DNA of 64,000 bases. Origin: Ulva prolifera (Eukaryota > Chlorophyta > Ulvophyceae > Ulvales > Ulvaceae). The translations under genes and the position numbers were made by a program. Shown here piece after piece: positions 16,331-60,720 of the stretch. The stretch covers positions 248,001 through 312,000 of the forward strand of contig CM041200.1 in the NCBI GenBank assembly GCA_023078555.1, in the 5' to 3' direction. Numbering within the stretch: the stretch's first letter is position 1; every line of letters starts with the position of its first letter. The notes under the pieces are model-generated. The model did not search any database. It was not told the DNA's origin and saw only the letters and a list, made by a program, of their open reading frames with translations.

Positions 16331-17550
16331 AAAGATATAACTCGTGTATCGTTGCCTGCCGTGCTCGCGTACTCTAGAGCACAGCTAGTGGACCAGTGAC
16401 TTCGCACGGCTCAAAATGACTTTGTACGGGCGGAAAGACACTGATTTCTTGCTCGGCCTGCGATAAAGTGGTCCAAAGTTCGAATCTTGAGGTGCAGTCT
16501 TTTGCACGAGGTCCGCAATGCAATAACGTGTTCTTATAGGTAATGTCGACATGTGTTGGGACACCTTGACATCACCGACATTTTGTGACAGGTTCACGGG
16601 GTGGCTATGGCACAGGTGGCGTGTACTGGGGAGGACAACGTCCCCGGGATTCCCCGGGTGCAGGTGGTTTGCTGAGGCCGAAGACCGCTGCTGCTATCTT
16701 CGCAGGCCTGATCGGCATTAGTGCCTCAAGGACACCCACAGCAGGGAATTGTTCTCCTGTCTGCAGGGTCGGGCCTCAGAAGGGAGATGTTTGCCACAAT
16801 GGCATGATGTGCAAATTTTTCGCCCTGTTAGCGGACAATCATACTCCATATGTCTTGGTTCTGGGTGATACGGTTGATGCAACTGCAGAAGTGTACCGGA
16901 GTGACACTATAGGTTGGTTTTGCAGTTACCGCACAGGGCTTGTGTACAACAGCCACTACCAAAGGGCAAATAGGTGATGGTCCCATAGAAGGGTGAGACA
17001 CACAGGAGGATCAATAAAGTTTGGCATTGGGCCTATCCCAGAGTGGCAGCGGCCCCAGCATTTGGGAGGGCTGATGAAGCACCCATACGTTGTGCATATG
17101 CATGTGAGCCATCGACCAGAAAGCATTTGCCACAAGACCCGCACAGGGCCGTGCGAGCATCCCGGGAGCAATGATACACGTTAGGTGCCATGCAGAGGGA
17201 CTGCCCGTGGGGCAGGGGTCCGGGATGTCTGACTCACCGCAGCAGCTCCGCCCACCCCCGTGGCGACACTGGAGACGAAGCCCCCCACCAGCCGGGTACA
17301 GTCACCTTGCATCTGCGTCTGAGCTGGGCCAGCACTATTTAGCGCCAGGGCAGGGTCAAGCAGGTCCAGCCCTGCGACACAACCCCCCTCGTCTGAAGAT
17401 GCTCAGTGGACCGTAGACATGGCCAACGGGGCATCGCGCACAATGAGCAGAAGATTGACATGGCAGAGATTAGCGCTTGTTGCATCCGGCCATCCCAGAG
17501 GGGGCATGCGCGGGCCATGCAGCAGCAGGTGCTCTGTCAAGCAGCGGTGG
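16331..17550. other. Intergenic region with possible unplaced exons
   Basis: A + strand frame at about 16.59-16.73 kb (GGYGTGGVYWGGQRP ... AAAIFAGLIGIS) follows a cag acceptor. A minus-strand frame at about 17.23-17.40 kb (GLDLLDPALALNSAGPAQ) ends at a good donor (GCG|gtgagt). Both look exon-like, but I could not join either into a gene. They may be remnants of a gene disrupted by the chromovirus to the right. Confidence 0.25.
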
Positions 17551-18344
17551 TGTTGTAATTGCCAAGTCTGTCTGCTCGGAAGCACACATATTCCAGATAT
17601 GCAGGCACCGATTGTGGATACATGTATATGTATCTTAGGCTAGTGCCTTGCTAAAATGAGACATCCAAAAGTATCCCAAAGAATAACTCAGAGTGCAAGC
17701 ATGTACCACGTCAGAGCTGTGCACATGAGCTGCATACATACAACTACATGTGCATAATTCCACATGCCCATAAAGTGCCACCAGCATTCCTCAACATGTA
17801 TAATCTCATATGACTATGCCATGTGTCATGCCACCTTATGCCTCAGCCTTCTGGCAGTGCGAAGTGCCAGCGCAGTGTGTGCCCCATCATGCATGCGTCG
17901 CATGCATACCCCTAGACGGCGCTTGCGCACGCCAAGGGTGCAGCGTCAATGACCATGCCATCCAGTCTACGTTTGTGTCTCCATGCAGCACCATCATGAT
18001 GTATTGGATTGACAGAGGATGATACGTACCAAATCCCAATGCCCGCAGAAGATCGCCAGATCTCGCGGGATGCTGCACCATGATCCGTACAGAGATCAAC
18101 GAGCAGCGCGATTCCATAGTTCCCCAGAGCTATCAGTAGCGAGGACAACACAAAGCAGGGATGGGCCTGGCCACATATATTCCAAGTGTTTTGTTGTGAT
18201 CGACACAATTACCTTTGGTCGATTGGGGCGCTTCTGTTCCAGTCATTCCATCGTGTGCTGCATTGTTACCCCTGTCGTTCTCTCTTGTCGTTTCTGTACG
18301 CTCGCTAGGGTGCCCAGCTCCCTGCGCTACCCGACCAGTCAACA
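17551..18344 (+). repeat. Probable 5' LTR of the chromovirus
   Basis: Starts TGTTGTAATTGCC. Its first 71 bp match the 3' LTR start at 24747 with only three or so differences. It ends ...CAACA just before a primer-binding-like sequence. The 3' LTR is cut off at 71 bp by a copia insertion, so the remaining 720 bp cannot be verified from this window. An antisense exon-like frame lies inside it (see findings). Alternatively, 17551-17621 is an isolated LTR fragment. Confidence 0.45.
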
Positions 18345-23642: not shown

Positions 23643-24746
23643 GGGTTACCAGTTGATGAGTTGTCCGGATGCCTGGAGAAAGTTGCCGATTATCTGTTCC
23701 ACAATGCCTCTACTCAGAGAGCGCACATGATTCATGAGTTTCCGCGTGAAGCGCGGCTGCAACTGTCCCATATAGCAGCCAAGGCTGAATCCACCAGGCG
23801 TCCCGTCGCTGGGGGGAAGGTGCCCGCGGGTGGCAGCAACATCGACGATCCCAAACGCAAACCGCGTAGACGTAGTTCTCGGTTGAGCGAATCCCATAAG
23901 GCAGCACTTTCCAGGGTCACCTACTGCAGTTGTTGTGGTAGGATGCGGACTGAGTCCGCAAAGCGCATGTGCGCTAATGCTGCCCCCCCGCTGTGATGCT
24001 GAAGGGGACGCCTGGATGTAAGCAGACTGCCTCTGTGAGGCCGGGGATTTCCAGGCCATAGGTGATGTAAGGAGGGGGCTCCCGGGAGCAAGGCCAACCC
24101 CTGCCTAAATCTGATCCGCCAGGTTGCATGTCGCGGGGCAGCAACCTGTTTTTCCATCATGTGACTTCCATAAAACCCGACAAACCAAATTCCATCATCC
24201 CTGAACCCACCTATGTGTGCAGTAAGAAACCTGCCAGTCCCTGAGATCCCACAAGATCCGACATCCCATTCCCTCGTCCAGCGTCGACGCTTTCTCCAGA
24301 ATGTCCGCCAATTGATGCTAGATGCCACTACAATGCCAGCGCTTGGAGACTACCACTCTCAGTACCTCACTGACCTCTGCCATGTCAGAAGAGTTACCCG
24401 CAGGCTGCATGATGCGGTCCTAGACCTAGATGAGGCCATGAGTGAAATGATTCAGCGCTACTCAGGTCAACAATTGTTGCCAGAGTACTTCCATGATCTA
24501 TGCGAGGAGTTCCCCAGCCAGGTCTAGAACTAGCCTTATTTCCAGCGAGGTCACTCTTCCGTGTTCCAGATGAGTAGACCCTTCTTTGTAAATACCACTA
24601 TGCCACGGTCTTGTGATGTGCCCTACCATTCATTTTAATACAATGGGATGTCTCCATTTATCCGCTTACCAGAGCTTCCAGACTTGTCTTGAGCTTGCAG
24701 AGCATACTCTTGTTTGCCCTGCTCCACTCCCGTATGTGGGGGGAGG
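23643..24746 (+). pseudogene. Chromovirus 3' coding remnants and polypurine tract
   Basis: After the frameshift the chromodomain tail continues as LPVDELSGCLEKVADYLF, then a basic stretch (DPKRKPRRRSSRLSESHK) to a stop at 23996. A second frame, 24213-24527, encodes a 104-aa helical peptide (VRRVTRRLHDAVLDLDEAM). The polypurine tract gtggggggagg (24736-24746) lies directly before the 3' LTR start. Confidence 0.6.
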
Positions 24747-24817
24747 TGTTGTAATGGCCAAGTCTGTCTGCTCGGCAGCACACATATGCCAGATATGCAG
24801 GCACCGATTGTGGATAC
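24747..24817 (+). repeat. 3' LTR fragment of the chromovirus (71 bp)
   Basis: TGTTGTAATGGCC... follows the polypurine tract and matches 17551-17621. It is cut at ...GTGGATAC by the 5' LTR of copia copy A. The rest of the LTR is not found after the copia element. Confidence 0.75.
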
Positions 24818-25162
24818 TGTCACAATGCATGTGCCTGCGGGCAGCAGTGTGGTGACAGGTGCACCCATGCACGGATGATCCGCGGATCATGTGTAGGGGT
24901 AGGCCGCCAGCGGGAGAATCTCGGAGTAGTGAGGGAGATCCTGCGAGGATCTCCCGCCGTAATCTTGACTATTCAGTGTGCATATATGGCTGTGCACACA
25001 GAGACCTGTAACCATTCTTCTTACTGTCTCACGGTGTTAGCACTTATCTCTCTCTAAGCGTTCCTCGGTTCTACATGTGTGCGCAGCAGGTATGGAACGC
25101 TGGCTGACCTGATGTGAACTGAGACTGCGCGTCTGACCTGACGAAGGATAAATTTTCTGACA
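24818..25162 (+). repeat. 5' LTR of copia copy A (345 bp)
   Basis: Begins TGTCACAATGCATG and ends TTTTCTGACA, followed by the primer site TGGTATCGGTGAATG at 25163. A TATA-like gcatatatgg lies at about 24979. Sequence details (gactattcagtg, catatatggctgtg) place it with the LTRs at 58300 and the outer LTR at 59790 (subfamily 1). Confidence 0.9.
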
Positions 25163-25468
25163 TGGTATCGGTGAATGTTAGCGTTATGTCTGTTTATGGT
25201 CTTGTTCAGGAAGCCGTTGGCCAAATTCTGTGCGCAGACACGGCAGGCATTCCACTTCTCTGCCGGCGCTCAGACCGCGGTCATAAGCGCAGGCATCATT
25301 TAGCTTTCTCGAAGCATATTGTTGTTAGATATAATTCGAGAAGCTTGTTTTAATGATCAGCGCTGATAAAAGCGAATGCGTTCGCTTATTTTCTCAACCT
25401 GTCGGCTTGCGAGCCATCTCATGTGTTAGTTGCTGCGCGCGACTAATCACCGTCCGTCCTACTGCAGG
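25163..25468 (+). promoter_or_regulatory. Primer-binding site and leader of copia copy A
   Basis: The site TGGTATCGGTGA resembles the complement of the initiator Met-tRNA 3' end. The ~300-bp leader is shared with copies B and C and contains a short palindrome (aagcgaatgcgttcgctt) about 100 bp before gag that could form a stem-loop. Confidence 0.7.
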
Positions 25469-26533
25469 ATGTCTAACTCTGATCACTCTAACGCCAACTC
25501 TCCTCGCGAGGAGAGGCGGGACGAGGCTGAACAGCAGCCAATCGTGGACAGGGACGCTGACCAGCAGCTCCCTGACGGAGAACAGCCCGAGGGTATGTTA
25601 TTCCGAGGCGGACGAGTTGTCCGGCCACGACCCTCTTCCCAGCCTGGGCAGAGCAGCCAGCAGGTGCCTTTTTCCTCTCATGTTGTGAACGATCATGGTC
25701 ACACTGAGTCCTTTATCACACTGGAGACGTTGACCGAAGCGCTGCGTGCATCTCGGGGACGTAGCGAACCTGATTTGACCAAAGGGAAGTTGCCTGAATG
25801 GAATTTGAAGACCGAAAGCTTCGTTGCGTACGAGCAGAAAGTCTTTTTGTGGTTAGGCCAATTCGAGTTAGACCATTTGTTGCAGCACGCGCCGTCTGCG
25901 GACGAACAGCGTGTTCATGCTAGGGCGAGGACACAGGTCCTGATGTCTTTGCCTGACGCGGATAGGACGACTGTCTATCGCATGTCACACCTGTGTGAAG
26001 CATGGGCCTATCTGACTGCTAAGTATAGGCCTAGCACCGAAGCCGAAATCCACAGACTGTGGAGTCGGTTTAATTCTTTGTCACAAAACAATAGAGATTT
26101 TGCGACATATTGTGGTGATGTGATGAGTGTTTACACTCAACTGGAGGCACTAGGTGCCGATGTGGGCCAGCAATGGCTTCGTTTGAAACTTTTAGAAGTG
26201 GGGGAGGAGTTCAACGCTGTGCGCGGCGAAGTCCAACACTCCTCCCCTCATGTGATCATATCACGTTTGACTGAGCATGCTGACTTGCTCAAACAACAGC
26301 GGCAGCTGCAGGCTAGGTCTGGGGCGCCCGCGGGCAATTCAGGCCATGGCTGGTGCAAGCAGCCCCGTGGTGATGGTCCTGTGGTCGCTGCTCTCGCGGC
26401 TGGCCAGGCTCCTCGCGAGGAGACCAGGACATGTTTCTTCTGCAAGAAGAAAGGACATTTGCGTGCGAACTGCCCCCAACGCAAACAGGATGCGGCCAAG
26501 GATGTTTGTGCTGTAGAGATGCCTAAAAAATAA
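25469..26533 (+). pseudogene. Copia copy A gag with zinc knuckle
   Basis: From ATG 25469 (MSNSDHSNANSPREERR). Residues from about 110 match the gag frames of copies B and C (KLPEWNLKTESFVAYEQK, FELDHLLQHAPSADEQRV). The CCHC knuckle is CFFCKKKGHLRANC. A TAA at 26531-26533 (MPKK stop) replaces a codon that reads Tyr in copy C, separating gag from protease. Confidence 0.88.
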
Positions 26534-28020
26534 CCGCAACCAGACGCGTCTCTGCCTTGGAATATTATCGTTGATAGCGGTTCGGACATTCACATTGTAG
26601 GCAATTGTGAAATGTTTACTGAGTATGGCCCATGCCAGAGGACTGCCAATCCCGCGGGACCAGGCAAGCTCCCTCTTATGGGCAGGGGAACCATTCAGGT
26701 GAACCTGGGTACTTATGTTGACAAACATGGGAACAAGCATCCATTAGATATGGAAATCCCTGGTGTTTACTATGCGCCTGAATGTCCGTACAATCTGCTT
26801 AGCACAATGGGTCTTAGGCATGAGCAAATATTTTTGGATACGCGTAGGAATGTGTTGTATATTCCTGGTTTGGGTGATATGGCTACTGATATCGAGGACG
26901 ATGTCAAATATCAGGAGCTCGATGTGGATGGTCATCCTGTTTTTGCGTTCAAAATTGAGGTAGACACCAAGCCTATCCTTGTCGGTGCCCCAGTCAACAG
27001 GGGAGTAGTCTGGTCTAACCAGAGCAGCCCGACCTGCATGGTGGAGGACCAGCGACAGTGGCACCATGTGGCGGCTGCGGCCATTGACCTGCAGCGACCC
27101 AATGCTGGGTGAGCTGAGGTCCCACATGACGCTTACTTGCTGGACCCTGCTTTCATAGCGCATTTGTCATTTCATCAGTCAAATTGGGTTATCAAGCGTA
27201 TGTAAGCCAACGCTGATTTTTTTGGTCATTTGAATTTGAGTGTCGATTCCGAGCCACTGGGAAATCGGTGTCACGGCTGCAGAATTGGCAAAGTGCCTGC
27301 GGGTAACTTCTCTGCCAATGATCGTGAGCTCATGGGCCAGGCCAAATATCCTGGTGAGCAACTGCATGCCGATTTAGCTGGTCCTGTCACTCCAGTGGGA
27401 ATTGGAGGTGTGAAATATGTTTTGTTTGTGATGTGTGCCTTTACCCGTTCTACTTTCGTGGTCGGTCTGCGCAAAAAGAGTGAGGCCGCGGCCATGATCT
27501 CTTATATTATTGAACGCATTCGGGTGAATGTGGTGAAGCCAGGTGAACCGGGTGTGCGCATCCTACACACCGACAAAGGGGGAGAGTTCATGGTTGAGGC
27601 CTTAAAGCTCTACCTCCAGCGTCGAGGCATCAATCACCGCTTGACCCCCACAGCTGATCATCGCTGTAATGGCATGATCGAGCGGAGAATCGGAATCGCC
27701 TTTGAGGCACTCCGTGCAGTGCTGCTTGCGAGTGGCCTGCCTCTGTTCCTGTGGATCGAATGTCTTGCCAGTGTTGTACATGGACACAATCTCACGCCGT
27801 GCTCGGCGTTGTATCATGACAAACTGGCACGCATTCTCAAGTCCCAGAAAGCTCAGCATGCCATCAACGCTGCGGCGGATGTGGATGAAGCTGAAAAGGG
27901 CAAAAAGCGCATGAAAAAGGCCGAGCGCGATAAGTTGAGGGATGAGGAAAAACGCAAGTACCAGTTGCTTGCGACGATAGAGTTAGATGAGTTTTTAGTG
28001 CGGTCATGTGACAAAATATC
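26534..28020 (+). pseudogene. Copia copy A protease and integrase
   Basis: Protease motif NIIVDSGSDIHIVGN, then a shared block (GVYYAPECPYNLLSTMGL). The pre-integrase zinc motif is FGHLNLSV ... NRCHGCRIGKVP. The integrase core has LHADLAGP, ILHTDKGGEF and CNGMIERRI (D, D, E). Copy A has stops at 27110-27112 and 27203-27205, where copy C reads Gly and Gln, and a frameshift at about 28.0 kb. Confidence 0.87.
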
Positions 28021-28029
28021 ATTCCCTAT

Positions 28030-29577
28030 ATGGCCTTTTTCAGAGAAACCTCCGTTGAGGTGTTCCAAGATCTGCTGCGGCAGCAGCGTCCGTGGGGGGT
28101 TGAGGTGTATGCATACCCTAGGGATGAAAAGCTGCGGAAGTTGTCCCAAAGAGGTGTCCTTGCATACTGGGTCGGGGCTGGGCTGGGCCCCAGCATGCAG
28201 CGTGTGTACTCCCAGGATGTTCCTGGGGGTAGGGTTTTTGTTGTGCGTCAGGTTGTGTGCACTGCGGATCAGATGATCCGCCACGTACGAAAGTACGATG
28301 CGTCCGCCGTTGTGGACAAGAGGGAACCTGAGGAGTTTGCGAACTCCTATACGGTCGCCTTCGAGGGGGACGATGAGGGTGAGCGTGTGACTGACGCTGA
28401 TGTCCCTCCTTTCGCGGCGGAACACACGTATGACGGGGGAGTGTTGCGCCGTCTGCGTGACCAGCTTCACACCCCCCCTGGTCATGGTAGGGTCCCTGTC
28501 ATGGAAATGACATTCCGGCAGGATAACCCTGAGCCTAGTCATGCTGTGTACTCCCCGCGATTTGGAGCTGGCTCCTTTGCGGAGATAATCCGGCGCGACC
28601 CTTCTCGGGCCACGCCGGAGATAGCCAGATCAGCTTTGCATCGCACGCGTGCGACATCCAGAGCTGCTGCTCACCCTGACGTCCCTGTCCCCCATCGTGT
28701 GCGTGGCGAAGTGCATCACCCTGTCGCCACGCCCTCCCGCACTGCGCAGTATGTTGTCACGCGCAATGCTGTGTTGCACGACCCTGGTGTAGAAGTTGCG
28801 TTCCCTGTTCAAGTGTCTGTCAGTGCGTCTGATGACGACGTGGAGGAGGATGACGACAGTCCTGGCATCTATGACGACGATGACGAACAACGGATGGATG
28901 ACACCGTCTCAGATGATGAAAGAGCTGCGGCTCATCAGAATCTGGAGGCTCAACGGGTCCGTTCCGGGAGTAATTCGGCAGTGGCTTCAGCATCTGGCGC
29001 GGGGGTAGTTGCTCAGCCCTTGCGAGGAGCTGAGGCGCCGAGGCCCTTCTGGGAGGATGAGCCAGATGAGGTGGAGACCGGGTCCGAATTAGGGGGAGAG
29101 GATCCGGACCCCTCAGCCGCAGTTGGGGTTGATTTGCCTGACGAGGTGAGGGCCATTCCAGCCGCCTTGCCTCGCATAAAAATCAATCCTCTTGTACGCA
29201 GACGCCTTGTTCCATTGGCTGCGGATGTAGCAGCTGTGCATATGCATGAGCCTGCGGGCTCTGACATTGCTAGTAGTGAGACAGTTGTAGCTGCTATTGA
29301 TGTTTCAGCCTGCGATGAGGACACATCAGCCGCGGCTGACTGTGGAGTGTCCTGTGCAGGCCTGAAACCTCAGCATGTGGAGTCTAGCGAGCAGCAGAAT
29401 GCTCAGCGTCGTGGGTCGCGCAGAGCAGCTGCCGCCAGGAAGCAGAAGCCTTCCGACCCTGATCTGCCTTCAATGAAGGAAGGACTCGCGGGTCCTGACA
29501 GGGATGCATGGCTGCGTGCCATGCAGGAGGAGGTGGAAGCACTGGGTGAGCACGGGACTTTTATGTTGTGCTATCTG
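28030..29577 (+). pseudogene. Copia copy A region between integrase and RT
   Basis: Long open frame: SH3-like basic part (VEVYAYPRDEKLRKLSQRG), then an acidic linker (DDDVEEDDDSPGIYDDDDEQ), then the start of RT at GPDRDAWLRAMQEEVEALG. The frame leads straight into the inserted repeat array after HGTFMLCYL, which repeats after the array. The acidic, disordered linker is common between copia integrase and RT. Confidence 0.75.
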
Positions 29578-30170
29578 ACACTTTCGATTAGAGTGCATCT
29601 CAATTAAGAGCTCTAGACATAAGAGATGCGTGTGCGACCTTGGGCACGGACGTAAAAGAGCGAAAGGCTTACCTGCCACCTGGCTGTGGAAAAGCTCACA
29701 GACGCTGAAAATGGCATGCATGGGCTCAGCGAGAAGGGATTTTTGGCACTTTCGATTAGAGTGCTACTCACTGAAGAGCTCTACACATAAGAGATGCCTG
29801 CGCGACCTTTACTCGCAGCCGTTGAATAGCAACTTGCTTCCCTTTCACCTGGTTGTGCAAAAGTTCACAGACGCTGAACATGGAATGTATTGGCTCAACG
29901 AGAAGGAATTTTTGACACTTTCGATTAGAGTGCAACTTAGTAAAGAGCTCTAAACATAAGAGATGCGTGTGCGACCTCGGGCACGGCCGTAAAAGAGGGA
30001 AAGGCTTACCTGCCACCTGGCTGTGGGAAAGTTCACAGACGCTGAAAATGGCATGCATGGGCTCAGCGAGAAGGGATTTTTGGCACTTTCGATTAGAGTG
30101 CTACTCACTTAAGAGCTCTACACATAAGAGATGCGTGTGCGACCTCGGGCACGGTCGTAAAAGAGCGAAA
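29578..30170 (+). repeat. 593-bp tandem array of about 168-bp units inserted in copia RT
   Basis: Units start at 29580, 29748, 29917 and 30085 (each actttcgattagagtgc...), spacing 168-169 bp, 3.5 copies, the last cut at about 86 bp. Units 1 and 3 are nearly identical; unit 2 differs in its middle. Each contains agagctct near position 30. The array is flanked by a 30-bp direct repeat with one mismatch, 29548-29577 and 30171-30200, both encoding EHGTFMLCYL. I see no transposon ends, no protein frame worth calling and no canonical hammerhead ribozyme core. Confidence 0.85.
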
Positions 30171-31424
30171 GAGCACGGGACGTTTATGTTGTGCTATCTG
30201 CCTGCGGGTAAGAAAGCTATCTCGGGCAAGTGGGTGTTCAAGATCAAGCGCGGACCCGAGGTTTTCGTTGAACAGCCCCCGTACTTTACAGACGGGACAG
30301 CACGTGTATGGAAATTGCATAAGACTCTGTATGGCCTGAAGCAAGCCGCTCGCGAGTGGCATAAAGCTTTAGTAAAGGTCTTGGCTGAACTGGGATTTGT
30401 GTGCGCACAGAGTGATCCCGGATTGTATGTCAGGAAAACCAGTCGCTGCTTTATCTTTCTGTGGGTGGATGATTTGTTCATTTTCAGTTGCTCTGCGGGG
30501 CTGCAAGAAATCATCAGTGTCATTCTCACAAAATTTGAAGGTAGAGACCTAGGTGATCTGTCTTGGGCACTCGGCATTGAGATCACGCGTGATCGGAAGG
30601 CCAAAACAATCACAATGACACAACGTACCAAAATCCAGAACCTGCTGGAAAAGTACAGCATGTCTGACTGTCGTAAATCTCCCACTCCATTAGTGCCGCG
30701 GCAACAGCTAAGGAGTGTGAAAGAGCATCCTGACCTGGAGAAAGCCAGTGCTGCTGAGCATTCCAGGTTCATGAGTGCTGTAGGGAGCATCCAGTATATT
30801 GCAGGAGTGACACGACCTGACCTGAGCTATGTGGCACATGCCCTGGCCCGGCACATGTCTAGTAGTTTGAAGGAATATTGGTCTGCCGTGCAACATGTTC
30901 TGAGATACCTGCAGTCCACAAAGAACTTAGGAATAAAAATTTTAGGCTCTGAGGGACACGGGTGTTTGTTAGAGGCTTTTTCAGATGCAGACTTTGCGAA
31001 TTCTGCGGATCTGAAAAGCGTATCTGGCATGATTATTCGAGTGTATGGGAACTCTGTTCTCCGGCGTTCGAAGAAGCAGAGTACAGTGGCCGGGGATACA
31101 ACAGAGGCTGAGCTCATCGCGATGAGCTCAACAGCCAACGAGTTGATGTGGGTGAAGCAGTTGCTTCTCGATTTGAAACTCGTCCCACATAAGCCGACTC
31201 TGTGGGGTGACAATAAGAGTGCCAATATCTTGGCTGTGAATGCTGTGTCCACTGACAGATCCAAGCACATTCGTGTGCGGCACTTGCGAGTGCGGGAATA
31301 TGTCCAGATGGATGAAGGTAGCATGGGTAGGCACTATTGATCAGTTAGCGGATGTGTTTACTAAGGTGCTGCCCGGACCTGCTTTGCTAGAAGTTCGTAA
31401 TAAACTCCAGCTAGTGGAGACGTA
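30171..31424 (+). pseudogene. Copia copy A reverse transcriptase and RNase H
   Basis: RT resumes at EHGTFMLCYLPAGKKAISG, KWVFKIKRGP, then jumps to EVFVEQPPYFTDGTARVW: the usual block between (the ARLVAKGF to LDVKTAFL region) is absent. The catalytic FLWVDDLFIF remains. RNase H has FSDADFANSADLKSVSG and TEAELIAMSSTANELMW. The frame ends MGRHY stop at 31338-31340. A +1 shift restores the element's C-terminus (WVGTIDQLADVFTKVLPGP) to a TAG at about 31425. Confidence 0.88.
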
Positions 31425-31426
31425 GC

Positions 31427-31442
31427 AGGGTTTGTGGGGGAG
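31427..31442 (+). other. Polypurine tract of copia copy A
   Basis: gcagggtttgtgggggag directly before the 3' LTR start TGTCACAATG at 31443, the normal plus-strand priming position. Confidence 0.8.
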
Positions 31443-31789
31443 TGTCACAATGCATGAGCCGGCGGGCAGCAGTGTGGTGACAGGTGCACCCATGCACGGA
31501 CGATCCGCGGATCCAGTGCAGGGATAAGCCGCCAGCCGAGATTGTCTCGATGTAGTGAGAGAGATCCCGCGAGGGTTTCTCGCCGTAACCTTGAGTGTTC
31601 AGTGTGCATATAGGCATGTGCACACTGAGATCTGTAACCATTCTCATCACTGTTTCACGGTACTAGCTGTATCTTGATTCTTCCCCGCATTCCTCGGTTC
31701 TACCTCTGTGCGCAGCAGGTATGGAATGCTGGTTGCCTGACTTGACCTGAGACTGCGCGTCTGACCTGCAGATGAGTGACTTTCTGACA
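31443..31789 (+). repeat. 3' LTR of copia copy A (347 bp)
   Basis: TGTCACAATGCATGAGCCGG ... TTTCTGACA. It resembles the LTRs at 59838 and 60885 (gagtgttcagtg, gcatataggcatgtg; subfamily 2) rather than its own 5' LTR. The flank after it (gtgtg) does not match the flank before the 5' LTR (gatac). Confidence 0.88.
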
Positions 31790-34700
31790 GTGTGCCCATA
31801 GCATGTCATTATTGCGTCTTTGGCTCATGGCTTGGCGCCCACAGCTTGCTATATTTCTATGTTGTTGCCCATGGTTCTGTGTCCCTTTCAAGTCATTGTT
31901 ATTCTCTATCTTCCCAGTGACCAGCCATTACTGGCTTTGCTTGCCCACGGCAAGCTGCCGGTTTCTCCGCCCGCAGCGGGTGCACGCTCCTTTTGCACAT
32001 GGTGGATCAATGCCTAGGTTCTGTCAAACCCTCTGCTACTGGCAGGATATGTCTGTCTCTGCCTCAGCGGTTGTCAGCACCTCGGACCGCTCGTTCTTGG
32101 TCTGCAGACCATGGTCCCAAATCTGATCATAAGTTATTATCCGATTTTTTTTTTGTCTCGTTCCAAGTCTTGTTCCAAGCCAGACGAGGCCGTGCTGGTT
32201 GCATATCATGTCTTTCAAAGACTGCAGTGCAATGTTTGACAAATTTTCGCAGCAATTCAACCAGGCCATTGTGGCTCAAGTGCTCTGCTACTAGCAGAGG
32301 TAGTACCCGGCAGGTCGGATCTTGCCACACTGCCACCCGGTACGTCGGATTTTGATACACTGCTACCCGGCAGGTCGGAGCTTGATACACTGCTACCCGG
32401 CAGGTCGGATCTTGATACACTGCTACCCGGCAGGTCGGAGCTTGATACACTGCTACCCGGCAGGTCGGATCTTGATACACTGCTACCCGGCAGGTCGGAT
32501 CTTGACACACTGCTACCCGGCAGGTCGGATCTTGACACACTGCCACAGCAGGCCTTTGAATTCACTGCCGCAGCAAGTCGAGGTTTCACTGCTACTCGGC
32601 AGGTGGGACTATTGATGCACTGCCACCCGGCAGGTCGGATTCTTGCTGCACTGCCACTGCAGCTCACTGCCGCAGCAGGTCCTCAATTTTCTGAATGTGT
32701 TGTCATTCCATTGTCATTCAGCCTGTGTATGTACGTGCGTAGTGTCGAGCTCTGGACCTAATACCACTGGCCTGCATCAGATGCTAACGATTATCCCACA
32801 AGTTTAGGCGAGCAGTGACGAAAGTTGTGGTCAAACCAAGTTCCTGATCATTGCATAGCTCCTTGTTGCTCGTTGGACGTTTGTATGCTCTCAAAGCTCT
32901 TGTATGTAGGCCTGAAATTTCCAGCAGCAACTAATCTTGGGAAGTTTTAATTATATATTCCACTGCTTGCTCCAGCCATGCGTTCTTTGTGTACAATCCA
33001 TGGTTGGTACTGATGTCTTTGACATAAATCTCAGCAGTAGCCATGTTGTGGCGACCAGCACTGCGTAGCACCGCCTGCCTGCTCTCGATGAATGTCCCAC
33101 CAGCCATACTAAACTCGGGATAGTTGCGTAGATCAGAGTCTCTTCGTAGGCTTTCAGCTGGTCTCCAGTTGCAGCTTGACAAGAATTTGGTCCATGTACC
33201 ATCTGCCGCTCTTAAGTGACATCATTGACAGCCAGTTCCCTTTTAGATTCATCATTTCCGCTGAAGTCTCAAGCACACTCTCCAGGAATTATTTTGCCCT
33301 GTCGCTGGCATGTGGGCGCCCTACCATCCAGAGTCCGTCGCCTATCCTGTTCGTAACATCATCAGATTTGCCAGCGCGTAGCTTATAACTGTTCTGTCGA
33401 TGACACATGAATTCATTCCAGTTATGTTCGTGCTCTTGTCTTTAGGATGGACTGACTGCGACGCCCATGAGTTGCTGCGCCCTCGCTGCGCAACTGCTGC
33501 TCTGCCGAGTTGAGAGCATACAATGTCCGTGTGGATATTTCAAATTGAACTTGCTGAGTCTTCAAACCGTTCCGCGCTATCGGCGGTTCCTGCTGGTGCC
33601 ATACACCTACCCATCCTCGCTGCGATTCTCGTCTATTAAATCGAAAGTCTATGCAGCAGCCAAAACAACAGATGGATGATTCATCTGTACGTGTCTGCAT
33701 ATTCGTTCGTGTGATGCTGGCGCATTGGTGCAGCATTCGCAGTGCAGTATGCCTGCTGCATTGTCTCTTTATCTCGGTTGCCAGTGCTCCACTTGGTTGT
33801 CAAGCCAAATGGAGAAAAGCGAGTTCACCCATTTGTCGAAGCTGCCTGTGGCCACCCCATGCGTCCTTGATACGGCGCGTTCTGCTGAACACGGCCTTAG
33901 GACCGGTTATGGAAGACCCTTGCAAGGCCTTGCGGATGGCAAGTGACCGCTCACGTGACACCTCGACCTCAGCAGGGGGGTCTGCACTCGGGCCATGCAC
34001 ACGTCCACCGGGAACGCGAGCCACTCAGACATCGCCCAGGGCCCTGGGCGGTGTCTATAGACTCACAATAACATACTGAATGCACACAGGATGAGATGCT
34101 CGAGCGGTGTTGCTGCGCTGTAGCACGGTGTAAAGCTTAAGCGGTGCGCTCCTTGATAGAGAAATACATCCAGCTGCGCGCATAGGCATCATCTGAAGGC
34201 GCAAAAAACATAATCGTGCAGCGCAGAACACAAGCAATTGAATGCACGTGCTTTTGATGCATTTCCAAGATTTGCCGAAACTACCGAGACCACCACCGCT
34301 ATAGCGCGCTATACAGCGAGTTCCTGGACCAAAACTTCCTGGACCAAAACACACCAATCGGAAGCATGCACTAGAAGCTCAGCAATGACTGTATCTGGTT
34401 TCCCGCACCGATCAGTCAAAAGGACGCAAAAAGCAACTCCAGCTGGTGTGCGCACTGTATCTCTAGAGATAGGTGAACGTCGAGTTCTTCAGGTAGCTCC
34501 TGCAGCTGTTTTATCTGTGCGCAGATGGCGGCATTTCAGACAACCGATGATGCTACGTCATCAATAGTGACAGCCGTACTGAGGAATGCACGGCCAGAGG
34601 TTACGGCAGGCCTTCGGTACTTGCGCAAGTCACCATGCATGGCCATGTAGGATCGTGAGCGAGAGTCATCATGGACCAGTGCTGTGTATGCACCATTGTG

Positions 34701-43607: not shown

Positions 43608-44507
43608 ATGAGCCGGCTCCTGCTGTCGACAGCTTGCTTCAGTCGTCTGAGCCTCGTCCGCACCCCAAATAAGAGTCACAGGCAGCTTTCTGGATCCTCT
43701 GCATATATTCGAGAGGACCTTCCGATCATTGGAGGTATTCCGCCTTCAGTGACTGCACAACACCCACAGTTTTGGCTGGAGTTCAACAATGACAAGGTCC
43801 CGGACAGGTTTCAGCCTGGTGAGCTCCATCGAAATGTGGAACGCCTCCCTTTCATTTTCTCAAGCTTTAGAAAGGACTTGGGACTGCGGCCAGGATCGCG
43901 ATACTCCCGGAAGCTGCGGAGCTATGGTTTCATACCAGGCCTGCTGGACTCCCTGCCTATGAAACAGCCACCTGTCCACTTGGTGCATGCAAAAGGTCAG
44001 ATGGAATCCATGATCCGGACCCTTGGCACCAATGTGTCCTGCCAGCTGTCCATCCTTCATATCATTGCTCCAGACGAGCTTGCTAAGCTCAACATGCATG
44101 AGCATGATGTGCGAGAGATGCTGTCCAAGGGATGGCAGCCATCTATCCATCAGAGTTTTCAAGTGCTACCACGGCGTGTCCACTTCAATCACGTTCCGGA
44201 CGCGCTCCTAGGTATGACGTTCATGAATTGTCCAAGTCATCGGATTGTGGAATGCCTGGTTCCAGTGGTGCCAGTCAATGCAGACGAATCTCCCAGTGCA
44301 AAGAGGGGAGGGTACCCTTTGATCACCAAGCGGTTTTTGAAAGTAAGATCGATAGCGATCAACATCCCACAAAGTATCAAAGTAGATTGTAGCACATTTG
44401 AGACAGGCCATAAAGTATTTTTGCGGGACGTTGCTCTTGGACAAGGGCAACATGTCGTGGCCAATGGACCTGAAACATGTTTGATCGTTATGGAGACGAG
44501 TGGTTGA
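43608..44507 (+). CDS. Mitochondrial-type ribosomal protein bL25, intronless
   Basis: Single exon of about 299 aa if started at ATG 43608 (MSRLLLSTACFSRLSLVRTP), which gives an Arg/Ser-rich, acid-free mitochondrial presequence; an in-frame ATG at 43509 also exists. The central part has the L25 RNA-binding-like region. The C-terminal beta domain shows CLVPVVPVNADESPSAKRGG and RSIAINIPQSIKVDCSTF, matching the bL25/CTC C-terminal domain (VPV.F....CPGVKRGG; LP..IPE.IEVD). Binds 5S rRNA in bacteria; in plants similar proteins are mitochondrial. Two intronless genes in this window (this and 15461) stand out. Confidence 0.8.
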   Translation: MSRLLLSTACFSRLSLVRTPNKSHRQLSGSSAYIREDLPIIGGIPPSVTAQHPQFWLEFNNDKVPDRFQPGELHRNVERLPFIFSSFRKDLGLRPGSRYSRKLRSYGFIPGLLDSLPMKQPPVHLVHAKGQMESMIRTLGTNVSCQLSILHIIAPDELAKLNMHEHDVREMLSKGWQPSIHQSFQVLPRRVHFNHVPDALLGMTFMNCPSHRIVECLVPVVPVNADESPSAKRGGYPLITKRFLKVRSIAINIPQSIKVDCSTFETGHKVFLRDVALGQGQHVVANGPETCLIVMETSG

Positions 44508-56516: not shown

Positions 56517-58299
56517 TCATGTACACAATCCGATTTTGCTGCTGTATTCGAGTGGCCACGGCCCAGGTGTCGCAGGACCGCCAGCGGCATCAGTTCGTCG
56601 AGCGTATCACGAAGGACAGCTTTCTTCAAGACTGTACCGCCGGGGACGCCCAATCATTCGGCCCGGATGTACCGACCTCACCACAGGTCCCATGACCATG
56701 GCTGACCGAACCGCAGACGCCATACATTGCCCCTCCGCGTGCAGTTCTGTCTCCCGCTAAAAGGGGGTCTCCCGGGAACCCGGCCGACACTAAAAAACAT
56801 GCATGATGGGCCGGTCGAGCAGTTGCTCTGGGCAGGTCTGGTTCGTCTACCACAGACTATACATCTGATGCCTCCAGAACTGATCAAACATCGTAGTCAT
56901 ACCGTTGTGATTGCTATTGATGCTTGGTGTTGTGCTGGCAGCGGTATCGATGCGACCATGCAAGTGACCGTGCACGTAGGCGTCAGGACTGTCGCTGCGT
57001 AAAGTCGCTGCCGTGCATGAATTGATTCAACTCATGTAGCACACAGAAATAATCATGGGTAGATCGTGTATCAGTATGGTGCACAGCATACATATCGTGT
57101 TTTTGGAGTACGGCTTCCTGCGAGCGCAGTTGACAGTACCTTCACGTCACTGGCTGCATTGAAGCTTTCGACAGGGATGGTACAGAACTTCTCCCACATC
57201 TCATATCGATGGCGCGTTGCTTGCGTACAGCGACTTCACAATGTACACGCCTCGTATGCGTGATGCCATCGCGGGCGGTCATTCAACACAGATGTGCGTG
57301 AGGCTGCAGCCGCGCTGTATCTGATCACATAACTGCAAAATTCCATGGCGTGCATAAGGAAACGTGATGTCATGTTGTAATGGTGCCAAACTTGCCACCA
57401 CCACGGCTGCCGTACAGGCGATGTGTGCCTCGCAGCCCACTGCCTACAGTAGCATTGACGCGCATAGTTGCTTTAACTTTCTATTGCAGTGTATTTCATG
57501 GTCGTTTGTATGCGAAACTATTGCACTGGTATACGAAGAACACGACAACACACCGTTTTCAACTGCCCCACATCAAGGGCCGCAGATGTGGGGCAGTTGA
57601 ACACGGTGTGTTGTCGTGTTCTTCGTATACCAGTGTACTACTGAAATAGCCAGCTGTCCGCTTCACTGCACATACAAGAAGGCTCACACAGTATCCACCC
57701 AAACAAAATTTGGAAAGTGGTCACCACTAAATCGTCATTGCAGAGTGAGAACATGCCTCAGCAACATGACTGCAGTCATCAGCGGTGCATGTGCCACGGG
57801 CTTGTTATATCTGAGTAAGATTCTACTGTATAGGCAAAGACACGGGAAGACTGACCTCTGCAATGTCATGGAGTTGTGCTTAGTGGCTGTGCGAATGCCA
57901 CAGAGCTGTGACTCTGTGTGCAAGCGATGACATAGCCTATCACCATGCACTCAGCGTGCAGCACCTGATGTTGAAACTTGGTACTAATGATGCCTGTCAT
58001 ATGTGCATCAGCATACCTGACAATGAGATCTGTATGGTCTCAAGTGCTAGAGTGGTCAGCTCGGGTGCGCTGTGTGAATGCCGCAGATGTGCCGTTCTCT
58101 ATAGACTTGGTACTCGTGGTGCCTGTCACATGCAGACATGCTTGGGCTTCAAAACATGGAAACAAGAATACCTTCACAGGCGGTTCATGATTCTGGGCTC
58201 GCTCGACCTCAGGGTGCATCACTTGGCACCAATGCTTACTGGTCAAATGAAAGGGCAGCAACTCCGACACTCATTCCATTCAAGAGCTGCGCAACAAGT
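56517..58299. other. Interval without a confident gene, contains a long hairpin
   Basis: Exon-like minus-strand frames occur at about 58.16-58.22 kb (HWCQVMHPEVERAQNHEPPV, followed by a gtattc donor) and about 56.55-56.65 kb (VLKKAVLRDTLDELMPLAVL). The main feature is the inverted repeat at 57524-57635. No family recognised. Confidence 0.3.
57524..57635. repeat. 112-nt near-perfect hairpin (50-bp arms, 12-nt loop)
   Basis: The left arm 57524-57573 (cactggtatacgaagaac...) and right arm 57586-57635 are reverse complements with one mismatch. The loop is caagggccgcag. No target duplication is obvious outside the arms. Confidence 0.9.
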
Positions 58300-58634
58300 T
58301 GTCACAATGCATGCGCCTGCGGGCAGCAGCGTGGTGACAGGTGCACCCATGCACGATCGATCTGCGGATTCAGTGCAGGGGTAAGCCGTCAGCGGGATTG
58401 TCCCGGAGTAGCGAGGTGTCCCGCCGTAATCTTGACTATTCAGTGTGCATATATGGGTGTGCACACAGAGTGCTGTAACCATTCTCTTTACTGTTTCATG
58501 GTATTAGCAGTACTCTCTCCAACAGTGTTCCAAGGTTCTACCTCTGTGCGCAACAGGTTTGGAGCACTGGCGGACTGACTTGACCTGTGCATGACTGCGC
58601 GTCTGACCTGCATAAAGGGTAGTTTTTTTTTACA
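58300..58634 (+). repeat. 5' LTR of copia copy B (335 bp)
   Basis: TGTCACAATGCATGCGCC ... TTTTTTTTACA, then the primer site. Subfamily 1 by shared variants with the 24818 LTR (gactattcagtg, catatatgg). It contains a TATA-like gcatatatggg. Left flank is aagtt. Confidence 0.88.
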
Positions 58635-58936
58635 TGGTATCGATGAATGTTTGCGTCATGTCTGTTATGGTCTTGTTCAGGAGGCCGTTGGCTAAAGTTT
58701 GCGCGCAGACACGGCTGGCATTCCACTGTTCTGCCGGCGCTTAGACCGCGGTCACAAGCGTAGGCATTATCAAGCAGTCTCGTAGCAAATTGTTGTTAGA
58801 TACAATTCGAAACGTCTGTTTTAATATTAAGCGCTGGGAAAGCGAATGCGTTCGCTTATTTCTCAACCTGTCGGCTTGCGAGCCACCCATCGGTTAGTCA
58901 CTGCGCACGACAGACAACCGTCCGTCCTACCGTAGG

Positions 58937-60720
58937 ATGTCTGGCAATCTCTACAACCAGAACCAGAACCCTCTGTTTGTGGAGGTCGCGGGTAATGCTG
59001 ACCAGCAACTGCCCGACGACGAGCAGCAACAGAAGCAGTAGCCGGTCCACGCGCAGCAGGCACAACCTGAGGGCATGCGCCTCAGATATAGTCGCGTCGT
59101 CCCTGCTCGGGACGCTTCCCAAGCGGGGCACAGCAGCCAGCAGGTACCCCTTCCTTCTCATGTTGTGAACGATGCCAGTCACACTGAGTTGCTCATCAGT
59201 CTCAGAGAGACGTTGACCGAAGCGCTGCATGCATCTCGGGGACGTAACGAGCCTGATTTGTCGAAAGAAAAACTGCCTGAGTGGAATTATAAGACCGAAC
59301 GTTTCGTTGCGTACGAGCAGAAAGTCTTCCTGTGGTTAGGTCAGTTTGAGCTAGATCACCTGTTGCAGCACGCACCGTCCGCAGACGAACAACATGTCCA
59401 TGCTAGAGCAAGGACTCAGGTCCTTATGTCTTCGCCTGACGCGGATAGGACAACTGTCTATCGCATGTCACATCTGTGTGAAGCATGTGCCTACTTGACT
59501 GCAAAGTATAGGCCTAGCAGTGAAGCCGAGATCCACAGACTGTGGAGTCGCTTCAACTCGTTATCACAGAAAAGAAGAGACGTGGGGTCTTACTGTGGTG
59601 ATGTGAGTGTGTACACTCAACTGGAGGCACTAGGTGCCGATGTGGGCCAGCGATGGCTTCGATTGAAACTGTTAGAAGTGGGGGAGGAGTTCAACGCTGT
59701 GCGCGGCGAGGTTCTCCACTCTTCCCCACATGTAATCATTGCACGTTTGACTGAGCATGCTGATTTGCTCAAGCAACAGCGGATGCGGGTGTCACAATGC
59801 ATGCGCCTGCGGGCAGCAGCGTGGTGACAGGTGCACATGTCACAATGCATGTGCCGGCGGGCAGCAGTGTGGTGACAGGTGCACCCATGCACGGACGATC
59901 CGCGGATCCAGTGCAGGGGTAAGCCGCCAGCTGAGATTGTCTCGATGTAGTGAGACAGATCCCGCGAGGGTTTCCCGTCGTAACCCTTAGTGTTCAGTGT
60001 GCATATAAGCTTGTGCACACTGAGACATGTAACCATTCTTCTTACTGTTTCACGGTACTAGCAGTATCCGATCTCTCCCTCGCATTCCTCGGTTCTACCT
60101 TTGTGCGCAACAGGTATGGAATGCTGGTTACCTGACCTGACTTAAGACTGCGCGTCTGACCTGCAGATAGAGTACATTTCTGACAGCACCCATGCACGAT
60201 CGGTCTGCGGATCAGGTGCAGGGGTAAGCCGCCAGTAGGATTGTCCCGGAGTAGTGAGGGAGATCCTGTGAGGATCCCCCGTCGTAATCTTGACTATTCA
60301 GTGTGCATATATGGCTGTGCACACAGAGAGCTGTTGCCTTTCTTCTCACTGTTTCACGGTACTAGCAGTATCCGATCTCTCCCTTCGCATTCCTCGGTTC
60401 TACCTCTGTGCGCAGCAGGTTTGGAATGCAGGTTACCTGACCTGACTTAAGACTGCGCGTCTGACCTGCAGATAGAGAGTATTTCTGACAGCGGGCTAGG
60501 TCTAGGGCGCCCGCGGGCAAACCAGGCCATGGCTGGCGCAAGCAGCCACGAGGAGACGGTCCTGCAGTTGCCGCGCTCGACGCTGGCAAGGCTCCTCGAT
60601 AGGAGACCTGGACATGCTTCTTCTGCAAGAAGAAGGGTCACTTACGTGCGAACTGCCCCCAGCGCAAACAGGCTGCGGCCAAAGATGCGTACGATGTAGA
60701 ATTGCCTGAAGAATTCCCGG
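58937..60720 (+). pseudogene. Copia copy B gag, broken
   Basis: ATG 58937 (MSGNLYNQNQNPLFVEVAGN). A TAG at 59039-59041 follows QQQQKQ, then the same frame continues (PEGMRLRYSRVVPARDASQ; KLPEWNYKTERFVAYEQK). It is cut at 59789 by the LTR nest and resumes at about 60496 (RSRAPAGKPGHGWRKQ), with another stop before the zinc knuckle CFFCKKKGHLRANC. The protease motif is NFIIDSGSDIHIVGNRE. Confidence 0.82.
59790..60490 (+). repeat. Solo LTR containing a second solo LTR (nested)
   Basis: Outer LTR pieces 59790-59837 and 60186-60490 are flanked by the 5-bp repeat gcggg (59785-59789 and 60491-60495). An inner LTR, 59838-60185 (TGTCACAATGCATGTGCC ... TTTCTGACA), splits the outer one and is flanked by gcaca/gcacc (59833-59837 and 60186-60190), a 5-bp duplication with one change. 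The outer LTR is of subfamily 1, the inner of subfamily 2. Confidence 0.88.

Follow-up and report, generated by a model that had tools for sequence, protein, structure and literature searches.

The 64,000-nucleotide stretch of Ulva prolifera DNA analyzed here (assembly GCA_023078555.1, contig CM041200.1, positions 248,001 to 312,000 of the forward strand; hereafter the window, in whose coordinates positions are given unless a contig is named) contains a copia retrotransposon whose reverse transcriptase (RT) gene is interrupted by a short tandem array of non-coding satellite DNA, which lies between two copies of a 30-bp target sequence. This insert is probably a linear fragment of a satellite array that was captured in the resident copia element during the repair of a staggered double-strand break, and as such it is a fresh instance of a known event type and gives no indication of a new class of mobile element. 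The features of break-repair insertions are present, namely an empty site in relatives, a single duplicated target, short microhomology and a lack of element ends. Short satellite arrays in ordinary chromosome arms may seed new arrays, but what such a site looked like beforehand can often not be told. In the present case, the insertion hit a young repeat, of which at least 14 copies are empty, so that the junctions, the duplication and the age of the event are directly readable.

The insert spans 29578-30170 (593 bp) and consists of 3.5 units arranged head to tail behind one junction base. A single A (29578) is followed, on the + strand, by unit u1 (29579-29746, 168 bp), unit u2 (29747-29915, 169 bp), unit u3 (29916-30083, 168 bp) and the partial unit u4 (30084-30170, 87 bp), i.e., 593 = 1 + 168 + 169 + 168 + 87 bp or 3.53 units. 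Tandem Repeats Finder reports the array at 29579-30171 with a period of 168, 3.5 copies, 82% matches and a score of 876, and this agrees, as does a comparison of the flanking repeats, with the original prediction of 3.5 units of 168-169 bp within a copia RT frame, bordered on each side by a 30-bp direct repeat whose copies differ at one position. The units are not uniform: u1 and u3 are 94.0% identical, while u1 and u2 share only 80.4% and u2, which represents a separate unit type, is 80% identical to both. The partial unit u4 is a mosaic, being u2-like in alignment columns 19-52 (33/34) and u1/u3-like in the later columns (35/37). Unequal exchange makes chromosomal satellites heterogeneous and mosaic, whereas multimers derived from a single circle would be nearly identical; the heterogeneity of the units and the mosaic u4 would thus fit a chromosomal array, unlike copies rolled off one circle. 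The termini of the insert read ...GAGCGAAA on the + strand and ...CGAAAGTGT on the - strand, and they fall at unit positions ~0 and 87 of 168, hence about half a unit out of phase, which argues for a fragment rather than a whole circle.

The array is bounded by a direct repeat, GAGCACGGGAC[T/G]TTTATGTTGTGCTATCTG, whose left (29548-29577) and right (30171-30200) copies are identical at 29 of 30 positions, with T at position 12 on the left and G on the right. In a scan of the whole window for 30-mer pairs with at most one mismatch and less than 1.5 kb apart, only tandem arrays, pieces of long terminal repeats (LTRs) and the pair flanking the insert were recovered, and the same scan of three mononucleotide-shuffled windows returned none. 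The bases at the junctions are ambiguous (TG, two bases, on the left and G, one base, on the right), so that the true length of the duplication may be 27-30 bp. The TG on the left could derive from the array (TTTTTGA/CAC, the slash marking the junction between units) or from the target, and the same holds for the G on the right. Together with this TG, the single A at 29578 matches the junction between u2 and u3 in the array (TTTTTGA/CACTTTC), and the microhomology is 2 bp at most.

The downstream flank leads to at least 39 other genomic copies of the host copia RT, which are 94-99% identical; this count is a lower bound, as the best 40 of 385 candidates were scored. In all 14 paralogs that were examined, the site is empty and the 30-mer is present once, with continuous sequence running from the AGCACTGGGT-type sequence (TGCACTGGGT in three paralogs, AGCACTAGGT in one) straight into CCTGCGGG; therefore, the insert and the duplication arose in the window copy. 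The original prediction was right in seeing a tandem insert that is non-coding and whose target duplication is exceptionally long. Seven of the 14 paralogs carry the same 30-mer as the left copy, whose T at position 12 is also the commonest state (T in eight, C in four, A in two); no paralog has a G there, hence the G of the right copy is private to the window copy. Compared with the 14 paralogs, the window copy shows only 10 private changes in 1375 bases (3/278, 0/58 and 7/1039; ~0.7%), by which measure the host copy, and hence its insert, can be regarded as young.

As for the origin of the units, the best satellite segment compared from contig C2 of the same assembly covers 589 of the 593 bases of the insert with 71% identity over 599 aligned positions. 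Identity to a C2 consensus built from 21 units is 68.5-71.1% for the three full units and 64.0% for the partial unit u4. A 35-position pattern common to the insert and the C2 satellite was matched 4045 times in forward and once in reverse orientation genome-wide (including three forward matches expected in the window itself), compared with 0/0 for the control, and all places among the matches listed are on C2; the lone match on the reverse strand could be an inverted or dispersed satellite copy. Stretches of the 168-bp array were seen on C2 at 5.478-5.57, 5.62-5.65, 5.79-5.99, 6.44-6.46 and 6.75 Mb, so the relatives among the matches listed are long chromosomal arrays of almost a single orientation. 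The units of the insert can thus be assigned, by their similarity, to a satellite family with its main arrays on C2. The original prediction had favored a mobile repeat over the capture of a chromosomal satellite. The genome search that it proposed led to the arrays on C2, and the window variant was not found again in the assembly as a dispersed copy; the predominance of satellite arrays among the matches listed largely speaks against the mobile reading.

Other satellites are interspersed on C2, namely a 334-bp repeat at 6.20 Mb, 162/184/346-bp repeats at 6.47 and 6.60 Mb and a 350-bp repeat at 6.50 Mb, none of which is similar to the insert or to the 168-bp family of C2 at E≤1e-3. The region of C2 at ~5.48-6.75 Mb (L003, L085-L089 and L111) is thus a satellite domain of more than 1 Mb that houses several further families, with units of 162-184 and 334-350 bp, and, given its location inside a 12.5-Mb contig, is probably the centromere. 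Among 20 points on contigs C1 and C3, one, at 9.0 Mb on C1, carries a satellite (157/314 bp; L098, C1:9000001-9000600). As it shows no similarity to the sampled C2 satellites, satellites seem to differ between chromosomes.

When up to three mismatches are allowed, two patterns of the window sub-variant (36 and 32 positions long) match the window alone in the whole assembly, while a third pattern of 35 positions has three matches in the window and one in a C2 unit at three mismatches. An 18-mer matched four times in the window and once, at two mismatches, in a unit at the edge of a C2 array; its other 24 matches, of which two, on C3 and C8, have two mismatches, do not exceed the control level (19 forward and 10 reverse matches in total, compared with 19 and 24 for the control), and at these 24 loci no further similarity to the insert was found. 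In the DNA search, the best C2 matches listed are 71-75% identical along ~280-303 bp, 76-78% along 88-121 bp and 83-86% in ~50-bp pieces. Words resembling those of the window, e.g., GGCATGCAT...CTCAGCGAGAAG, occur in some C2 units at 6.75 Mb, hence the window variant falls within the diversity of the 168-bp family of C2. A closer donor was found neither in samples of C2 (at 5.65, 6.20, 6.47, 6.50, 6.60 and 6.75 Mb) nor at 12 points on C1 and 8 points on C3; this point sampling took in C1-C3, while C4-C44 were reached through the pattern and DNA searches, which spanned the whole assembly, among the matches listed. A viral origin was considered and rejected: two unit patterns had 0 matches in viral_contigs, a collection from which records of the window's own genome may be left out. 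The insert preserves a satellite sub-variant that the searches did not recover from the assembled array.

The host copia element extends from 24818 to 31789 on the + strand, with its 5' LTR starting at 24818, its 3' LTR at 31443-31789 and an RVT_2 domain in the RT frame; a comparison of this RT with the Protein Data Bank (PDB) returned no relative. The two LTRs are 83-84% identical, and the 5-bp flanks (GATAC and GTGTG) do not match. In a close and young copia relative used for comparison (L062, whose 5' end is L110), the LTRs are 98.9% identical and TCCGA is found on each side. The 3' LTR of the window copy is 98-99% identical to this relative, whereas the 5' LTR is only 82-83% identical, which identifies the host element as a mosaic of two copia subfamilies. 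The RT gene carries a further lesion, as 201 bp (67 codons) that are present in paralogs are missing at 30258/30259, in-frame and with 1 bp of microhomology, at a distance of only 58 bp to the right repeat. This deletion recurs in none of the 39 other copies listed (no match spans the deletion point), and the segment absent from the window copy is displayed in six paralogs. The copia RT around the insert, initially described as otherwise normal, is therefore not intact, and the LTRs and the lack of a 5-bp duplication likewise depart from a normal element. When 13 paralogs were compared with L062 over 1.79 kb, the sole comparable internal length change was an expansion of a TA repeat, while four paralogs (L066, L071, L072 and L074) lose homology towards one end. 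The expansion, by ~62 bp around positions 1395-1467, is in the RT gene of L064; this copy was considered as another case of filler insertion among the copia copies and rejected, since its extra 62 bp are the expanded TA repeats.

In the course of events that is considered most probable, two nicks ~30 bp apart would open the copia RT gene, filling in of the single-stranded overhangs would duplicate 27-30 bp, and a broken satellite piece from an array of the C2 family would be joined between the ends by means of 1-2 bp of microhomology. The 201-bp deletion 58 bp away would probably belong to the same repair episode. Because the paralogs show few such length changes, two independent lesions so close to each other would be unlucky, if judged without a formal test, and the proximity of the deletion to the insert points to one complex episode of repair. 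Cas9 nickases have been used in mouse and human cells to generate duplications that result when complementary 3' overhangs are filled in (PMC8355091), and in rice, tandem duplications, which reportedly account for at least half of the new insertions of >10 bp, are ascribed to the repair of adjacent nicks (PMC7971508).

Several points weigh against the capture of a satellite fragment during break repair. A close donor array is absent among the assembly matches listed, even though the host copy is young, and the donor must be unassembled, lost or outside the matches listed. The closeness of insertion and deletion may be a coincidence, and there is only one case, with no recurrence on which the mechanism could be tested. 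Moreover, template switching by RT leaves scars that are similar to those of break repair. In such a scenario, the copia RT would have switched to a putative packaged satellite transcript, copied 593 nucleotides and returned ~30 nucleotides before the point of exit, so that 30 nucleotides were copied again, with the 201-bp deletion as another jump within the same cycle. This would explain the duplication without a staggered break and the 1-2 nucleotides of microhomology at the switches, it would make the private T-to-G change of one of the duplicates an RT error, and it would account for two lesions within a single copy, 58 bp from each other. Double template jumps have reportedly also been proposed as the source of chimeric retrogenes for long interspersed nuclear elements (LINEs) in Magnaporthe (PMC2104539). 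Nevertheless, RT capture is unlikely. It predicts identical LTRs and a 5-bp integration duplication, but the LTRs of the window copy are 83% identical and the duplication is absent, hence the window copy is no clean RT product and underwent rearrangement either independently of a clean integration or later than it. In addition, the deletion is found in none of the 39 other copies listed and the insert in none of the 14 examined, and transcription of the satellite has to be assumed. The stricter version, in which copia particles package centromere-like satellite transcripts and RT switching leaves the duplication, the insert and the 201-bp deletion in one cycle, is slightly more doubtful again; if it were true, retrotransposons could carry satellite units between chromosomes.

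For the insert to be a mobile element, as in the retrozyme-like or Penelope-related insertion suggested by the original prediction, an RNA signature might be sought. No Rfam ribozyme family matched the insert at E≤10, and five related or neighboring satellite stretches on C2 had no ribozyme matches at E≤1; the matches to snoZ162, snoR144 and PVT1_3 in the insert and to HOTAIR_2 in L088 were at chance level and far under the gathering scores. The canonical hammerhead core (CTGANGA...GAAA) was found on neither strand of the array or of circularized units, confirming what had been noted for the unit. CTGANGA occurs once on the + strand of the array (in u2), without GAAA in the usual order. With GAAA ahead of CTGANGA, in the reverse order, the two strings are present on the + strand, but the hammerhead families gave no scoring match on the insert. 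A loose pistol-like expression, which a bare AAANGA satisfies, had three matches on the + strand, and no pistol family scored. For either strand, the folding energy of u1-u2 RNA is at the level of shuffled sequence, with z scores of 0.19 and 0.08, and no poly(A) was found at the insert ends, both of which were checked. A ribozyme or RNA element was hence rejected for want of an Rfam ribozyme, a hammerhead core and excess folding. A protein-coding insert was rejected likewise: the longest stop-free runs in the 593 bp, of 124 amino acids on the + strand and 110 on the - strand, were given no weight, and a Pfam scan of the open frame that leads from the insert into the RT found only RVT_2, within the RT part.

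The multimeric, non-coding nature of the repeat and a target duplication of more than 4 bp would suit a mobile tandem element with a long target duplication, be it retrozyme-like, a circular RNA mobilized by Penelope or a satellite RNA mobilized by a LINE, and animal non-LTR retrozymes occur as dimers to large multimers with duplications that, where present, exceed 4 bp (PMC7229834). However, the ribozyme and folding results, the absence of poly(A), the lack of dispersed copies found in the assembly, the non-integral length with ends out of phase and unit types too unlike for one circle make such an element very improbable. An extrachromosomal satellite circle that was opened once and joined into a staggered break is improbable to a slightly lesser degree. 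Excision, rolling-circle replication and reintegration have been proposed for the dispersal of satellite units, with reintegration taking place via homologous recombination in that proposal (PMC3411249). Yet, a single opening of whole units predicts ends in the same phase, which are here 87 of 168 bp apart, u4 is recombinant relative to u1-u3, and the circle would be workable only if ~80 bp were lost. Of the earlier suggestion that circular satellite DNA had reintegrated, satellite DNA as the source thus stands, while a whole circle does not agree with 3.53 units and ends about half a unit apart. An assembly artefact, in which a satellite read was misjoined into copia, would account for the single locus but is scarcely credible, as the copia sequence runs on at both sides and the target is duplicated; a misplaced piece of C2 is unlikely, since the sub-variant did not turn up in the C2 array as assembled.

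Capture of a satellite fragment during break repair has counterparts among known systems. Vaughn and Bennetzen reportedly described in 2014 insertions with flanking duplications in rice that arise from patch-mediated double-strand-break repair. As in the window, the target of break-repair insertions in rice is duplicated by tens of bp, which is attributed to the repair of nearby nicks and not to a transposase or integrase, but the rice cases presented there are simple tandem duplications, whereas the duplicates in the window are separated by ectopic satellite DNA (PMC7971508). TCAST, a major satellite of Tribolium, likewise has dispersed euchromatic copies that form short arrays away from its main block; these copies are numerous, and some resemble transposons in having inverted repeats and a 3-bp duplication, in contrast to the one copy in the window, which has no such ends (PMC3411249). 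The central repeats of Helentrons in Crassostrea likewise form short satellite-like arrays dispersed in the genome, yet Helentrons have fixed flanking modules and no target duplication, unlike the window insert with its 30-bp duplication and no modules (PMC7492417). Retrozymes, both the LTR type of plants and the non-LTR type of animals, share with the insert the non-coding tandem units, and duplications of the animal type can exceed 4 bp; they differ from the insert, in which no hammerhead was found and which has no integral number of units and is present as a single copy (PMC4918200, PMC7229834).

Some further repeats and one gene were observed in the window. A stretch of ~75-80 bp starting near TGTTGTAATGGCCAAGTC recurs at 17546-17625 and 24742-24820 and is also found in L111 from position 1255; in L111 it is located at the end of a C2 satellite array, while one of the window copies adjoins the 5' LTR of the copia element, and the stretch probably represents the beginning of an LTR that belongs to another retroelement. 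Two tandem arrays lie shortly downstream of the copia element, one of 30-bp units at 32304-32543 (8 copies, 92% matches) and one of 31-bp units at 32587-32658 (2.3 copies). Pieces of copia LTRs are clustered at 58300-60492, among them two LTR stretches in head-to-tail arrangement (59838-60186 and 60186-60492), and this cluster adjoins another copia element that reaches from 60885 to the end of the window. A near-perfect palindrome of 112 bp is located at 57524-57635 and matches its own reverse complement at 92.9%. The ribosomal protein bL25m is encoded at 43608-44504, with 10 relatives found, and its nearest relative in the PDB is chain t of 7pkt, which we take to be the Chlamydomonas mitoribosome.

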